This document shows positions 57,217-63,555 of a stretch of 64,000 nt of DNA, in pieces; the first letter of the stretch is position 1; the number at the start of each line of letters is the position of its first letter. Where the stretch lies: NCBI RefSeq assembly GCF_017310545.1, contig NZ_CP066203.1, forward strand, positions 1,860,001-1,924,000. Direction: 5' to 3'. The translations under genes were made by a program, and so were the position numbers. The notes under the pieces were generated by a model, which worked only from the letters and a program-made list of their open reading frames with translations, was not told the DNA's origin and ran no database searches. Source of the DNA: Methylacidimicrobium sp. B4. Lineage in GTDB: Bacteria > Verrucomicrobiota > Verrucomicrobiia > Methylacidiphilales > Methylacidiphilaceae.

Positions 57217-58089
57217 GCGGCCATTCTCTTGGCGGACGGCAAGGCTCGCAAGCCTTGGGCTCAAGACGTGCTCGGCCCCAGAAAAGCACCCACTCGACCG
57301 GGCGCAGGCGTAGGCGTGGCTCCAAAGGAGCATCCGTCCCTCGTGCTCCGGCTGGCTGCTCGACTAGAAAAGGAGGAATGCCAAAGTCACCGGAGTCCAA
57401 TGGTCGCGATCCTTTCCTGGTTGCGCAGAGCTTGGCCTGAATGCGGCAAGCCCACTCCGATCGTCGACTCAAGCCCAATCTTCCCGCTTTCCCAGCAAGC
57501 GCCGTATCGTCCACGAAGAGAGAAGGAGGTTCCTATGCCCACGACATCTCTTGGAGCCCATACGGTAAAGGATTGTCGTGGTGAAAGTGCTCTCCTCCTC
57601 GACCCGAAAAATCGACCTTGTGGACAAGGTGGAGATCGATCGCGAGGCGGGCGCTCGCCTCCCCGGCCGTAGTCCTTCTGGTGGTTGGCAAAAAAGGTTC
57701 AACCGCTTGTCTATTGGAGCATCAGGGTGGTTCTCCTGGCAGCTAGCCGCCATTTCTCACGAAGGCCGACCAAGACGGGAAGCAAAAAAGCCGGCAAAAG
57801 AGCATAGGAAAGGCCGCCTTTCCCTGGCATACAGTGCGTGAACGAGACGTAATTACAACCAGGAATGAAAATGGCCGTTCCGGACAGAGGGGATCCAAGG
57901 GACTTTCGGGTTTACCGCGCGTTTTTCGCGTCGGGGGAAAGCGGGATTTCCCTAGGTCGGGTTTCGTCGAGCGATGGGGGTGCGATCCTCTGACGAGAAG
58001 CGGATCGGAAGATCGGTTTGTTAAGACGGCTGGAGCGTTGCTTCCGGGATCGACGCCATCGACCCAGGCCTTCCTTTCTTGCGCGAAAG
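57217..58089. other. Eroded region without a supported gene
   Basis: All frames here are short, overlapping and lack family motifs. One ATG at 57535 has an ideal GGAGG site, but its frame closes after 46 residues of no recognisable type. The stretch lies between a housekeeping-like ATPase gene and an ardC remnant and probably consists of decayed mobile DNA. Confidence 0.5.
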
Positions 58090-58367
58090 CTCGCGCTGGT
58101 GAGAAATGGCGGATAGCCAGCTCTCTGGCTCGCAACGCCGTCCTCAATGACGCCACCCCAGAGAATGAGCAGATGGATTCCGGTGCATCGCCGATGGGTC
58201 GCGGCGTTCTGGGGCATGGCGAGCGTCGCTTTCGCCGCCGCTGTCCCCCATGGTTGGACCCACAGTGCGCGGCTCGCCTCCAACTCGGCGATGATCTTGT
58301 CAGTGATTTCGAAAGAGAGGCTTGTCCGGTCCTGGCCGGAACGGGGGCGAGCGGCTGAACCTGACAT
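58090..58367 (-). pseudogene. Remnant of an ArdC-like antirestriction gene
   Basis: On the minus strand from 58367, the translation includes FEITDKIIAELEASRALWVQ, PWGTAAAKATLAMPQNAATH and CTGIHLLILWG. These align with the ArdC N-terminal domain (T-I-A-L-x-PW-PW, PxN, GxNxxxLW). After about residue 80 the expected SWLTF segment continues in another frame (SWLSAISHQRELSRKKG), so a frameshift is present and no protease domain follows. ArdC proteins bind single-stranded DNA and are carried by plasmids and conjugative elements. This marks past mobile DNA. Confidence 0.65.
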
Positions 58368-58617
58368 CGCGGCTCTCCGCGACCAGCGCCGCGAGCCTCT
58401 CTCGCGACCTCCAACCCGTCACGGCAGACCCGGTAAAACTTTCCCTCTGGGGGGAGTTGCGGGGTCTCCCCGCAGATGAGGGTGCGCTGGCGACCTTGGC
58501 GCCGGCCAGGGAGCAGGCCTTCCCCAAAGGGCCGCTCAAGTTCCTGATTTCCAGTCGGCTGCAGATGTGATAAAACCTCTGCTGAATTCTATGTAAGAAG
58601 AGGAAACCTCACGAAAG

Positions 58618-59238
58618 ATGACCTCGATTAGCGCCCAACGGACCCGTGCCCTTGATCTCCTGAAAACCCGGGGAATGCTCCGGCTGAAGGATTTCGTTGC
58701 GGAAGGGATCGGACCGGAGACGCTGGCCCGTCTCATGCGGGAGAAGGCGGTCGTGCGTCCAGCCCGGGGCCTTTATCAGCTCCTAGACGCGCAGATCGAG
58801 GCCGCCCACATGCTCGCCGAAGCCGCGGTCCTGGTTCCCAAGGGTGTCGTCTGCCTGACCTCGGCGCTCCAGTTCCATGAACTGACGCTGCAGATGCCGT
58901 CTGCCGTATGGATGGCAATCGAACGGACCGCTTGGCGGCCCAGAATCGATTATCCGCGAATCCGCTTTGTGCGTTTCACCGGGGCAGCGCTGACCGAGGG
59001 CATTACCCGCCACCGCATTGAGAGTACCAACGTCCCCATCACGGATCCGGCCAGGACGGTCGTGGACTGCTTCCGCTATCGGGCCAAGGTCGGTCTCGAC
59101 GTCGCGATGGAAGGGCTGCGCGAGGGCCTTCGCCGTCGCCGCTGCACGCCCGACGAACTCTGGCGTTACGCGCGGAAGGCTCGAGTCTGGTCGGTGATGC
59201 GCCCCTACGTCGAAGCGATGGCAGCCGATGCCACGTAA
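58618..59238 (+). CDS. abiEi: AbiEi-type antitoxin (type IV toxin-antitoxin)
   Basis: 206 residues. The N-terminal winged helix has ALDLLKTRGMLRLKDFVAEG and ETLARLMREKAVVRPARGLY. The AbiEi C-terminal domain has VPKGVVCLTSALQFHELTLQ, RFVRFTGAALTEGITRH and ITDPARTVVDCFRYRAKVG. It represses the operon and neutralises AbiEii. The start ATG follows AGGAAACC-like spacing without a strong site. It overlaps the toxin gene by 11 bases. The promoter should lie in the AT-richer 58560-58610. Confidence 0.9.
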   Translation: MTSISAQRTRALDLLKTRGMLRLKDFVAEGIGPETLARLMREKAVVRPARGLYQLLDAQIEAAHMLAEAAVLVPKGVVCLTSALQFHELTLQMPSAVWMAIERTAWRPRIDYPRIRFVRFTGAALTEGITRHRIESTNVPITDPARTVVDCFRYRAKVGLDVAMEGLREGLRRRRCTPDELWRYARKARVWSVMRPYVEAMAADAT

Positions 59239-60166
59239 ACCTCGAAATGTCGGCGCATCAGTACGGGCGCGACTCCTCGATCGGGCGCGCGTCCAGCGGT
59301 CTGACTTTCAGATTTTGCTGACGCGCTACGCGCTCGAGCGTCTGCTGTACAGGCTGAGCATTTCAGGGCATCGCGACCGCTTCGTCCTCAAAGGCGCAAT
59401 GCTCTTTGTAACCTGGGTTGCCGATCTGTTCCGGTCGACCCGCGATCTCGATCTACTCGGCTACGGGGACAATGAAGCCAAGGCGATCGCTGAGACTTTC
59501 CGCGCCATCTGTGCCCAGCCGGTCACCGATGACGGTGTCGTATTCGATGTCGCCGGGCTGGAGGCAGCGCCGATCCGTGAGGAGGGAGAATATGGCGGCG
59601 TGAGGGTGCGCGCGAGCGCTACTATCGATGGTGCGCGGATCCCGATCCGGGTCGATATCGGCTTCGGCGATGCCATCACCCCGGCACCGGTCGAAATCGA
59701 TTACCCCGCTTTGCTGGACGCACCCGCGCCGCATCTTCGGGCCTATCCCGTCGAGACGGTCGTGGCGGAGAAGTTCGAGGCGTTGGTTACGCTCGGTATG
59801 GCCAACAGTCGTCTCAAGGATTTCTACGACCTTTGGCTGATCGCGCAGACATTCGAGTTTCATGAGTCAACTCTTGTAGAAGCTGTGCGATGCACGTTCG
59901 AACGGCGTGCGACGAAGCTGCCGGTCGATATCCCGATCGGCCTGAGCGATGAATTCGCGGAGGCATGGGGCGCTCAATGGCAAACCTTCCTGGGGCGTGA
60001 GCGCATGACTGCCGTACCTGGCGCGTTTTCCGCCGTCATCGCCGATCTAGGGGCCTTCCTGATTCCGTTAGCAGGTGCGGCCGAAGACGGGCGGGTGTGG
60101 CTTCCTGGCGGACCATGGTTGCAACCAGCTTCTTCGACTGATGCAAATGAAATGAAAAGCGAGTGA
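59228..60166 (+). CDS. abiEii: AbiEii-type nucleotidyltransferase toxin
   Basis: 312 residues of the DUF1814 nucleotidyltransferase fold: FVLKGAMLFVTWVADLFRST with the Lys-Gly motif, RDLDLLGYGDNEAKAIAE with paired Asp, VDIGFGDAITPAPVEIDYP, and PVETVVAEKFEALVTLGMAN followed by SRLKDFYDLWLIA. AbiE toxins add nucleotides to tRNA or otherwise block growth on phage infection. The pair appears intact. It ends 12 bases before the first copy of the repeat element. Confidence 0.9.
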   Translation: MPRKPRNVGASVRARLLDRARVQRSDFQILLTRYALERLLYRLSISGHRDRFVLKGAMLFVTWVADLFRSTRDLDLLGYGDNEAKAIAETFRAICAQPVTDDGVVFDVAGLEAAPIREEGEYGGVRVRASATIDGARIPIRVDIGFGDAITPAPVEIDYPALLDAPAPHLRAYPVETVVAEKFEALVTLGMANSRLKDFYDLWLIAQTFEFHESTLVEAVRCTFERRATKLPVDIPIGLSDEFAEAWGAQWQTFLGRERMTAVPGAFSAVIADLGAFLIPLAGAAEDGRVWLPGGPWLQPASSTDANEMKSE

Positions 60167-60178
60167 ACACGCTGCCAA

Positions 60179-60440
60179 GCCTCTTCGCTGTTTCCCGTGG
60201 GTAGAGGGGGAAGATCGGGCTGCAGCTTTCCGGCTTTGAGAAACGCGGCAATTCTCCGGGAGCGGAAGCTCCGAAAGCCTCCGGCCATCCGCCGCCAAGG
60301 AGGATCAAGGAAGTCGAAGTGTCCTTGACGGCTTCCTCTCTCCCCAACAATCCGGCGAAGACGGATGGCAAGAACCCCGCTTCTTGCCATCCCTTAACGG
60401 AAAATCTGGTCCCCTTACCCACTCAATTCAGCGAGGAGCC
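60179..60440 (+). repeat. Repeat element copy 1 (MITE-like, imperfect terminal inverted repeats)
   Basis: 262 bp starting GCCTCTTCGCTGTTTC and ending CAATTCAGCGAGGAGCC. The two ends are inverted repeats over about 25 bp (18 matches). Near the right end a perfect 12-bp stem, GGATGGCAAGAA / TTCTTGCCATCC (60363-60392), encloses CCCCGC. A second copy lies at 61977-62266 in the same orientation. The two share their ends and a central block but differ in the left-middle part. No target duplication is visible. It replaces everything upstream of the hsdM tail. Confidence 0.75.
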
Positions 60441-60560
60441 ATCAACTTCAACCGTTTCTTCTACAAGTACACGCCGCCGCCGAAGCTGGAAGACATCGAC
60501 CGGGAGTTGAAGCGCGTGGAGGCCGAGATCGCCGCCTTGCGTGGCGAGGTGACCGAATGA
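60441..60560 (+). pseudogene. HsdM, C-terminal fragment (type I restriction methylase)
   Basis: 39 codons and a stop remain, encoding INFNRFFYKYTPPPKLEDID, then RELKRVEAEIAALRGEVTE, the characteristic end of HsdM proteins. No start codon or ribosome site precedes it. The repeat element abuts directly on its left. The methyltransferase domain is gone, so no modification activity can be expected. The stop overlaps the next ATG (ATGA), preserving the original operon junction. Confidence 0.8.
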
Positions 60561-61609
60561 GCCATCCCGCAACCGACCCAGACTCCCTGCTGACCGAGAT
60601 TCGCGCCTTGATCGAAGAGGCGCGCATCCAGGTTTCCCGGGCAGCCAATTCCGCGCTCACGCTCACATACTGGCGTGTCGGTCGGCGCATTGGCGTTGAA
60701 ATCCTGGGCGGCGAGCGTGCCGCCTATGGAAGCCGGATTATCGAATCGCTGGCGCGACAATTGGAATCCGAGTACGGGCAGGGGTTCGGCGAGAAGAACC
60801 TTCGCCGCATGGTGCAGTTTGCCGAGGTGTTCCCGGAGGAGGCAATTGTCGTATCGCTGATACGAGAATTGACCTGGACACATTTTCTGGCTCTGCTGCC
60901 CCTGAAAGACCCGCTCGCCCGCGAGTTCTACGCCGAAATGTGCCGCGTGGAACGCTGGAGCGTTCGCACACTGCGGCAGAAAATCGACGGCATGCTCTTC
61001 GAGCGTACCGCGCTGTCGAAGAACAGCGAGGAAGTCGTCCGGCAGGAACTGGCCGCCTTGCGCGACGGTCGCATGACGCCGGACATGGTGTTCCGCGACC
61101 CCTACCTGCTCGACTTTCTTGGCCTTTCCGGCTCGTACAGAGAGAAAGACCTGGAAGCCGCCATTCTGCGCGAGATGGAGTCTTTCCTACTCGAAATGGG
61201 CAGCGGCTTCTGTTTCGTCGAACGCCAGAAGCGCATCAGCGTCGGCAAGGATGATTTCTATCTCGATCTGCTGTTCTATCACCGGCACCTGCACCGGCTG
61301 GTGGCCGTGGAACTCAAGCTCGAATCCTTCCAGCCCAGCCACAAGGGGCAGATGGAGCTTTACCTGCGCTGGCTGGACAAGCATGAACGCGCCGCCGACG
61401 AGGAACCGCCTATCGGCCTCATCCTATGCGCGAGCGCCGATGCCGAGCAGGTGGAGCTCTTGCAACTGGACGAAGCCTCCATCCGGGTGGCGGAATACCT
61501 GGTTCAATTGCCGCCGGTCGAGGTGCTGCGCGAGCGCCTGCATCGCGCCATTGCGCATGCCCAGGAGCGTGTCGCGGCGCTGGCGGCCCCGAAAGGAGAC
61601 CCGGCATGA
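60557..61609 (+). CDS. DUF1016/YhcG-family PDDEXK nuclease protein
   Basis: 350 residues. The N-terminal DUF1016 domain includes TLTYWRVGRRIGVEILGGER, YGSRIIESLARQLESEYGQG and KNLRRMVQFAEVFPE with LIRELTWTHFLALLPL. The C-terminal PDDEXK-like nuclease domain shows FYLDLLFYHRHLHRLVAVEL with KLESF. Such genes are commonly found inside type I restriction operons between hsdM and hsdS, as here. The frame is intact although both neighbours are broken. It may have lost its promoter with hsdM. Confidence 0.88.
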   Translation: MSHPATDPDSLLTEIRALIEEARIQVSRAANSALTLTYWRVGRRIGVEILGGERAAYGSRIIESLARQLESEYGQGFGEKNLRRMVQFAEVFPEEAIVVSLIRELTWTHFLALLPLKDPLAREFYAEMCRVERWSVRTLRQKIDGMLFERTALSKNSEEVVRQELAALRDGRMTPDMVFRDPYLLDFLGLSGSYREKDLEAAILREMESFLLEMGSGFCFVERQKRISVGKDDFYLDLLFYHRHLHRLVAVELKLESFQPSHKGQMELYLRWLDKHERAADEEPPIGLILCASADAEQVELLQLDEASIRVAEYLVQLPPVEVLRERLHRAIAHAQERVAALAAPKGDPA

Positions 61610-62277
61610 GCCACTACAAACCGTATCCGGCCTACAAGGATTCCGGGGTGGAGTGGATTGGGGAGGTGCCGGAGCATTGGGAGATTGCCCCGATCAAGCG
61701 GTTAGGAAAGCTCAAAGGCGGAAGCGGATTTCCACCGGAGATGCAAGGACGGCTTGGTAATGAACTTCCGTTCTTCAAAGTTGGCGACTTAGGGAAATCT
61801 CTCGACGGGGTACCGCTTGGGGAAGCAAAACACACAATTAGCCGGGAAGAAGCAGTGAAAATAGGTGCCACGATCTTCCAGAAGAATACTCTCGCTTGGG
61901 CAAAGATGGGAGCCGCATTGTCGCTGAATCGGCGACGAATTCTTCTATCAGATTGCTGCCTCGACAACAACATGAAGCCTCTTCGCTGTTTCAAGTGGGT
62001 AGAGTCGGAAGATCACCGGCCCTTCCGAATCCAGTTGCAGCGCCGCAGCGAAAAGCTTGTTTGCGTCCATCCCGCAAGCATCCACGAGGCAGCCCGGTCT
62101 GGCCATCCGCCCTCAAGGAGGATCGACGAAGTCGAAGCGTCCTTGACGGACTGCAGCCTCCTCTCTGCCCACAGATCCGTCGAAGACGGAGGGCAAAAAC
62201 CCCGCTTCTTGCCATCCCTTAACGGAAATCCGCTCTCCCCTTACCCACTCAATTCAGCGAGGAGCCAGTACATCTAG
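61606..62277 (+). pseudogene. HsdS, N-terminal part, truncated by the second repeat element
   Basis: The first 124 residues are typical HsdS: MSHYKPYPAYKDSGVEWIGE, VPEHWEIAPIKRLGKL, and a first target-recognition domain up to LSDCCLDNNMKPL. From 61977 the repeat element begins and the frame runs on through it to a stop at 62277, adding about 100 unrelated residues. A full HsdS needs two recognition domains and about 400 residues. The missing part and hsdR are not found downstream. The specificity protein should be non-functional. Confidence 0.82.
61977..62266 (+). repeat. Repeat element copy 2
   Basis: 290 bp, same orientation as copy 1, with identical first 16 and last 32 bases or nearly so. 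Terminal inverted repeats match at 19 of 25 positions. The right-end hairpin is conserved with two mismatches (62188-62217). The central block GGCCATCCGCC to GTCCTTGACGG is shared, while the part between about 62014 and 62100 is unrelated to copy 1. It interrupts hsdS. No transposase gene is in the window, so movement would need one elsewhere. Confidence 0.75.
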
Positions 62278-62278
62278 G

Positions 62279-62350
62279 GTTTAACCTTGCGCCCCGGCGG
62301 ACCATTCAGACGCTCTGCTCGTTCACGTCCGCCGAGCTTGAGCGTTGGGT
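62279..62350 (+). other. attC-like recombination site (integron cassette hairpin)
   Basis: The 72-bp stretch begins with GTTTAAC (fits RYYYAAC) and ends with GTTGGGT (fits GTTRRRY), the outer boxes of integron attC sites. Inside, CGGCGGAC (62295-62302) and GTCCGCCG (62327-62334) form a perfect 8-bp stem. The outer boxes pair only partly by G-T wobble, which is weaker than usual. It is a single site, and no second attC or integrase is seen. Confidence 0.4.
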
Positions 62351-62415
62351 GCGCGGGGGAGCATCAGCTCCGATCCAGCGCCCCACTTACCAATGACCAA
62401 GCGAGATGAGGAGGC

Positions 62416-62952
62416 ATGGCTGAGAACCAGTTCCCAATGCAGATGGGTCGCGGGATCACGTTCTTCGGGCACTGCGATATGCCCGTGACCCTGGAGGATG
62501 TCCAAGCTCTCGACGCCGATTCCTCGGCCGGCTACGAGTGGCGAGTCGGGCTACCGAAACGCACGCTCGAAGAAGGGGCCATCTCGCTGGCCGGGGCCGC
62601 GAGCGTGTTGAGCGGGGAACAGGAGTTCCCGGCCTTAGCGAAGCCTCCAGACGCAGAGCGCTTGCGTCTTCTGGTCCAGTTGGCCTGGATTTGCTCGGCC
62701 TGCATCCACGACCGCCAGTTCGCTGCCTGCCTCTCCGGCATCTGCGCGCCGCCTAGCCAGATCGACGTTGTCGATGAGCAGCAGTTCACCAATCCATGGC
62801 AGCGCACGACGCAGGCCAGCGCCGCGATCGACTGCGCGAAGCACGACCGCGGGCGCGAACGGATGCGGCAGCAAGGGTGGGACATCGTGACGGTCCGGTT
62901 CATTGAGATTCGAGCGGAGGCGGCGTCAGTGCAGCGAACAGCGCAAGGATGA
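62416..62952 (+). CDS. Hypothetical protein preceding darT
   Basis: 178 residues without a recognised domain. The middle is helical with Cys residues (LVQLAWICSACIHDRQFAAC). The end, CAKHDRGRERMRQQGWDIVT followed by VRFIEI, has the look of a small nuclease-like strand-turn, but no catalytic set is clear. GAGGAGG stands one base from the ATG, closer than ideal. It starts 66 bases after the attC-like site and 12 bases before darT, so it may belong to the toxin operon or to a cassette. Confidence 0.6.
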   Translation: MAENQFPMQMGRGITFFGHCDMPVTLEDVQALDADSSAGYEWRVGLPKRTLEEGAISLAGAASVLSGEQEFPALAKPPDAERLRLLVQLAWICSACIHDRQFAACLSGICAPPSQIDVVDEQQFTNPWQRTTQASAAIDCAKHDRGRERMRQQGWDIVTVRFIEIRAEAASVQRTAQG

Positions 62953-62964
62953 TGGAGGGCGACG

Positions 62965-63555
62965 GTGAAGCGCGAGGAGTTGCGGGAATTGCATTACATC
63001 GCGCCTATGGTTAACGTATGTTCCATCCTTCAGCGCGGAATCCTGTCAAACAGAAGGGCCTCGAGGATTGACCATGCTTCGGTGGCGATGCCGGAAGTCC
63101 AGGCTCGACGAGCCAACGTTGTCGTCGCCGGCAGCCGAAGGCTGCATGAGTATGTAAACCTGTACGTATGCGCCAGGAATCCGATGCTTTACAGTCGGCA
63201 AGAACAGCACCTCGACCTCTGCGTACTCCAGATAAGCACGGATGTGCTGGACCTTCCAGACGTGGTCGTGACGGACAGAAATGCGTCGAGCGTCTACGTT
63301 CGGTACGCGGCTGCGCCTGCTGGTCTCAGCATCGTAGTTCGAGAGTGGACCTTTGCCGAGTACTGGACAGAGCCGGATCCCACTGTCCAATTGAGGAAGA
63401 AATCCGCCAAGTGCGCCGAAGTTCTGGTTCCGGACAGGGTGGACCCACGGTTCATCCTGGGCGCCTATGTCTCGTGCCAGGTCGCAGCGGACAAGCTGAA
63501 GAGCCTAGGAACCCGAATCGGCATCAGCATCCATCCGCACATGTTCTTCCAATAG
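62965..63555 (+). CDS. darT: DarT, DNA thymidine ADP-ribosyltransferase toxin (DUF4433)
   Basis: The 196-residue product starts at a GTG with GGAGGG six bases before it. Family motifs are LHYIAPMVNVCSILQRGILS near the N-terminus, ARRANVVVAGSRRLHEYVNL, LYVCARNPMLYSRQEQH and CAEVLVPDRVDPRFILGAYV with the likely catalytic Glu. DarT ADP-ribosylates thymidine in single-stranded DNA and stops phage or host replication. The antitoxin gene darG begins 11 bases downstream. Confidence 0.9.
   Translation: MKREELRELHYIAPMVNVCSILQRGILSNRRASRIDHASVAMPEVQARRANVVVAGSRRLHEYVNLYVCARNPMLYSRQEQHLDLCVLQISTDVLDLPDVVVTDRNASSVYVRYAAAPAGLSIVVREWTFAEYWTEPDPTVQLRKKSAKCAEVLVPDRVDPRFILGAYVSCQVAADKLKSLGTRIGISIHPHMFFQ

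Follow-up and report, generated by a model that had tools for sequence, protein, structure and literature searches.

In the genome of Methylacidimicrobium sp. B4, two short and similar sequences, A and B, lie at the points where the hsdM and hsdS genes of a restriction-modification locus are broken. This raises the question of what these sequences are and of how the genes came to end exactly at them. The stretch of DNA analysed here (the window) is 64,000 nucleotides long, and the coordinates of its relevant features are collected in Table 1. A preliminary description had reported two copies of an undescribed element with shared, imperfectly inverted ends, a strong hairpin near the right end and no target duplication; these observations hold, as do the positions and lengths given for both copies. 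A and B begin with GCCTCTTCGCTG and end with CAGCGAGGAGCC, as read from the sequence and from a repeat finder, and the ends form imperfect inverted repeats (GCCTCTTCGCTG.../GGCTCCTCGCTG...). The hairpin GGATGGCAAGAACCCCGCTTCTTGCCATCC is present, and the window holds two occurrences of the right-end 26-mer, against 0.00 expected by chance. The flanking 8 bases differ for each copy: GCTGCCAA on the left and ATCAACTT on the right of A, and AACATGAA on the left and AGTACATC on the right of B.

The breaks themselves, also placed at the elements by the preliminary description, are exact. Homology to an intact locus from Aeromonas begins at the first base past A, in the last part of hsdM, which retains 39 of about 676 codons (94% gone), and hsdS ends at B. 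The intact order, hsdM-DUF1016-hsdS-hsdR, is found on plasmids. For example, the Type I locus of the Aeromonas plasmid pMCR5_045096 has its genes in the same order and is 79% identical to the window in nucleotide sequence, whereas in the window hsdM survives only as its end and hsdS only as its start, with the DUF1016 gene between them. The presence of a DUF1016/YhcG PDDEXK gene between hsdM and hsdS is common to many plasmid hsd operons. Beyond B, on its right, nothing was recognised as belonging to hsdS or hsdR. Among relatives, the 1.5-kb hsd fragment was not found, save for a 57-bp match in one genome, nor was any relative found with an unrearranged locus at this site.

Table 1. Features of the window at and around copies A and B.
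Feature	Coordinates	Strand	Basis or remark
AbiEi	58618-59238	+	Pfam; left neighbour of A
AbiEii	59228-60166	+	Pfam; left neighbour of A
Copy A	60179-60440	+	262 bp; blastn to parent L031:175-1587, 89% and 92% identity
Copy A, left terminal inverted repeat	60179-60206	+	22 genome sites at <=3 mismatches; reversed control 0
Copy A, deletion junction	60280-60290	+	11-bp imperfect direct repeat TCYGGCMATCC at both parent break points; both alignments span these bases
Copy A, strong hairpin	60363-60392	-	Within parent's transposase leader
Copy A, right terminal inverted repeat	60414-60440	+	20 genome sites; reversed control 0
hsdM remnant	60441-60560	+	Only the final 39 codons, with stop; tblastn match (77%) to plasmid-borne class I SAM-dependent DNA methyltransferases
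DUF1016/YhcG PDDEXK nuclease gene, intact	60557-61609	+	Pfam DUF1016_N, YhcG_C; 85% to plasmid homologues in hsd operons
hsdS remnant	61606-61976	+	Start of the gene (123 codons plus 2 nt); tblastn match to restriction endonuclease subunit S
Copy B	61977-62266	+	290 bp; MITE-type derivative; blastn to parent copy L031
Copy B, left terminal inverted repeat	61977-62004	+	Parent end matched exactly
Copy B, deletion junction	62013-62014	+	TC microhomology, 2 bp; alignment with parent
Copy B, strong hairpin	62188-62217	-	Within parent's transposase leader
Copy B, right terminal inverted repeat	62240-62266	+	Parent end matched exactly
DarT	62965-63555	+	Pfam DarT; right neighbour of B
DarG macro-domain gene	63566 to window end (64000)	+	Pfam Macro; right of B

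The preliminary description had proposed a search for further copies and for an autonomous parent sharing their ends; the genome contains both. Copies were gathered by search and by region from its single contig of 2.37 Mb (2,371,269 bases): copy B gives 44 matches and a full insertion sequence (IS) copy gives 53, 13 of them near-complete with 95-100% identity. Pairing of left and right ends sets the length of the parent at 1412-1416 bp. One full copy, L031, encodes on the opposite strand a 402-aa transposase that matches the Pfam families DDE_Tnp_ISL3 (1e-61), HTH_Tnp_ISL3 and Zn_ribbon_ISL3 and the NCBIfam model transpos_ISL3 (328 bits, cut-off 180), and it is flanked by the exact 8-bp target duplication AAATTTTT. 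The parent thus combines a DDE transposase carrying a zinc ribbon and an HTH domain with imperfect GGCTCTTCG-type terminal repeats (GCCTCTTCGCTG / GGCTCCTCGCTG) and an 8-bp target duplication, exact in 12 of the 23 full copies from three species. Published ISL3 elements have the same GGCTCTTCG-type terminal repeats and 8-bp duplication (PMC11448079). The named plasmid elements ISAtc2, ISTfe1 and ISIde1 share with the parent the transposase family and a transposase length of about 400 aa; however, the amino-acid identity to members such as ISAtc2 and ISTfe1 is only about 40%, and A and B, unlike these insertion sequences, carry no transposase. Close relatives of the IS copies also occur in LP2A, a congeneric verrucomicrobial strain closely related to the source. 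An IS110-type element with a guide RNA was ruled out, since the parent transposase is of the ISL3 DDE type and leaves 8-bp duplications. Another full copy (1670395-1671806; 8-bp duplication CGGAAAAT) has landed in an older copy of this IS, within its right end.

The IS also forms larger structures. A 7.95-kb composite (348611-356564) is bounded by inverted ISL3 ends and is 99.99% identical to a source copy at 653174-661126; of these two sites, that at 348611-356564 has an outer 8-bp duplication, TGACATCT. Judged from this duplication and from the near-identical source copy, the composite shows that the IS ends were active. Moreover, single IS copies may lack a duplication of their own because they are composite ends. 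Among the genes carried by both composites are one resembling TnpB, one of the AlbA_2/Schlafen type and, recognised by eye only, an HsdS-like fragment. Elsewhere (2343608-2344867), ISL3 ends corresponding to parent bases 2-120 and about 1305-1413 surround a PIN-domain toxin gene and a weakly MazE-like antitoxin gene, with no transposase, and a second locus 13 kb away (2329890-2330518) shares this middle but has lost much of it. Neither is flanked by a target duplication, and the former looks like a mobile insertion cassette with a vapBC-type pair.

Alignment with the parent resolves both copies into two retained parts. Copy A consists of parent bases 2-113 (89% identity) joined to 1252-1413 (92%), and copy B of bases 2-39 (95%) joined to 1167-1413 (90%). 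The middle segments do differ, as the preliminary description had it; what each copy retains there is another portion of a single parent, not an insert of foreign origin. The B junction recurs in the genome at 862542 and 2341046 and at three loci in LP2A. Flank comparison indicates that the 2341046 copy, which has a second deletion at CTTG, is orthologous to an LP2A copy at 347 kb and that the other copies with the B junction are not orthologous, giving five distinct loci in two species. This recurrence suggests an old MITE subfamily and would best be accounted for by a single deletion and later movement in trans. The A junction was found elsewhere only once, in LP2A, where it also adjoins abiEii. 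The two A copies differ by 9.5%, as against about 2-3% in the neighbouring abiE stretch, and their common origin is therefore not certain.

Both A and B are short, lack a transposase and retain the two parental ends, as expected of MITEs, and the same derivative is present at several loci in the case of B (five) but at one locus in the case of A. Target duplications are usual around MITE copies when these are young. None of the 17 internally deleted copies has an exact one, as against the proportion given above for full copies (Fisher p 0.0003, the copies not being fully independent). Transposition of the deleted forms themselves is thus not directly seen, and this would count against the explanation preferred here. 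In view of the missing duplications and of the junctions common to unrelated loci, on which the assignment rests, B is filed as a probable old, MITE-like derivative. The MITE reading in the preliminary description is borne out by the resident parent and by the several loci of B in two species.

The same description had offered a structured mobile RNA element as another reading. The right-end stems lie upstream of the parent's transposase gene, in its leader, and the stem-loops are nearly invariant among 35 right ends of the IS group from several species. Such conservation would speak for an RNA family in its own right, but the sequence is that of the transposase leader, and the hairpins are lost from a 138-bp copy. 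Being nearly invariant, the stems provide no support from covariation: the 35 right ends show no convincing compensatory changes and mainly one-sided ones. The leader folds only modestly better than shuffled sequences (z-score -2.1), and an Rfam search placed the hairpins in no family. With neither covarying stems nor a known RNA family to its credit, a structured RNA was rejected as the nature of A and B; it is extremely improbable. A scan of the leader gave no intrinsic terminator and no sigma-70 promoter at the thresholds used. By likeness to other IS elements, one might guess that the stems shield the transposase gene from outside transcription. A further proposal, that the stem-loops regulate or shield the transposase, that B-type derivatives keep them as a functional part and that insertions would carry a ready-made attenuator into a host gene, is speculative and quite unlikely.

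The reading of A and B as internal-deletion derivatives of an ISL3-family IS, with later rearrangement of their flanks at the element ends, is very probably correct. The B subfamily would have a single origin in a deletion between parent bases 39 and 1167 and would then presumably have been moved in trans by the ISL3 transposase to several loci, while A is a separate deletion across the 11-bp direct repeat (113/1252), at a locus common to LP2A. Both lack the transposase and keep the two terminal repeats together with the right-end transposase leader. Once the elements were in place, rearrangements with end points exactly at their termini would have removed or exchanged the flanks. The sequences affected would comprise the target duplications, most of hsdM (94%), the last part of hsdS, and hsdR; the 1.5-kb hsd fragment with its intact DUF1016 gene would have stayed behind between A and B.

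Comparison with LP2A bears on this last step. The LP2A abiE operon is 98% identical to that of the window and lies next to an A-type element, from which abiEii is separated by 137 bp containing the start of an ATPase-like reading frame. The window lacks these 137 bp, the missing stretch stopping exactly where A begins, and the right flank of the LP2A element differs from that in the window. Similarly, the element at 2341046 has its left flank (95% identical), but not its right flank, in common with the ortholog in LP2A. On the other side, the DarTG region (62.5-64.0 kb) is 99.7% identical to LP2A, where its homologue lies beside that of window 54.6-57.3 kb; abiE is at another place in that strain. 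In this comparison, window 57277-62500 has the appearance of an exchange site for defence genes. A 178-aa reading frame before darT (62416-62952) has no Pfam or NCBIfam match.

Rearrangement ending at the element termini is indicated by the comparison of flanks with LP2A and by the absence of target duplications around the deleted copies, which it would explain. The preliminary description suggested that recombination between copies had deleted parts of the locus; the rearrangement at the ends is supported, but a deletion made by the transposase next to the element also fits, and both processes would leave the same pattern. They amount to two versions of the final step in the preferred history. 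Homologous recombination between two copies in direct orientation would give one hybrid element with flanks from two insertion sites. Near-identical copies abound in the genome, full copies often lack target duplications, and the left and right flanks of A come from unrelated loci. A published precedent is that of small Tn3-derived elements bordered by fragments of different genes (PMC4133298). A reciprocal product was not found, however: neither the spacer nor the right flank of LP2A has a match in the genome of strain B4. Recombination has about an even chance of being the process involved. In the second version, an element end attacks a nearby site and the intervening DNA is lost exactly to that end. 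The loss of the LP2A spacer precisely up to A and the recurrence of flank differences on one side are in keeping with such an event. Recombination yields an identical pattern, however, and a literature search at the level of titles and counts returned no documentation of adjacent deletion by ISL3 elements; this version is conceivable, though somewhat doubtful.

A and B might alternatively have bounded a small composite transposon that brought the hsd fragment to this site. The genome does contain a composite of the same IS, and the regions outside the abiE and hsd genes adjoin in LP2A. The outer flanks GCTGCCAA and AGTACATC, however, form no duplication, and this origin is unlikely.

As ISL3-derived elements that lost their transposase by internal deletion, A and B belong to an ordinary, well-known kind, since MITEs mobilised by ISL3 elements have already been published. 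In Microcystis aeruginosa, a 187-bp MITE with 31-33 identical copies and 8-nt duplications was attributed to ISL3 transposases (PMC11448079). Like A and B it is short, lacks a transposase, has imperfect ISL3-like terminal repeats and stem-loops, and disrupts genes; in contrast, the copies described here are few, old and diverged, lack duplications and have clear internal-deletion junctions to a resident parent. The TIMEs of Pseudomonas are Tn3-derived miniature elements whose mosaic flanks were attributed to recombination (PMC4133298). These, too, are small (262 bp) and non-autonomous, retain both ends of their parent and have mosaic flanks, but the ends are those of Tn3 and the duplications are of 5-6 bp. 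With its resident parent and exact deletion junctions, the present family is a clean case of the decay of an IS into MITE-like derivatives, whose termini then serve as fixed borders where rearrangements take defence loci apart. The case is of use for the annotation of these verrucomicrobial genomes and leaves the general picture unchanged.
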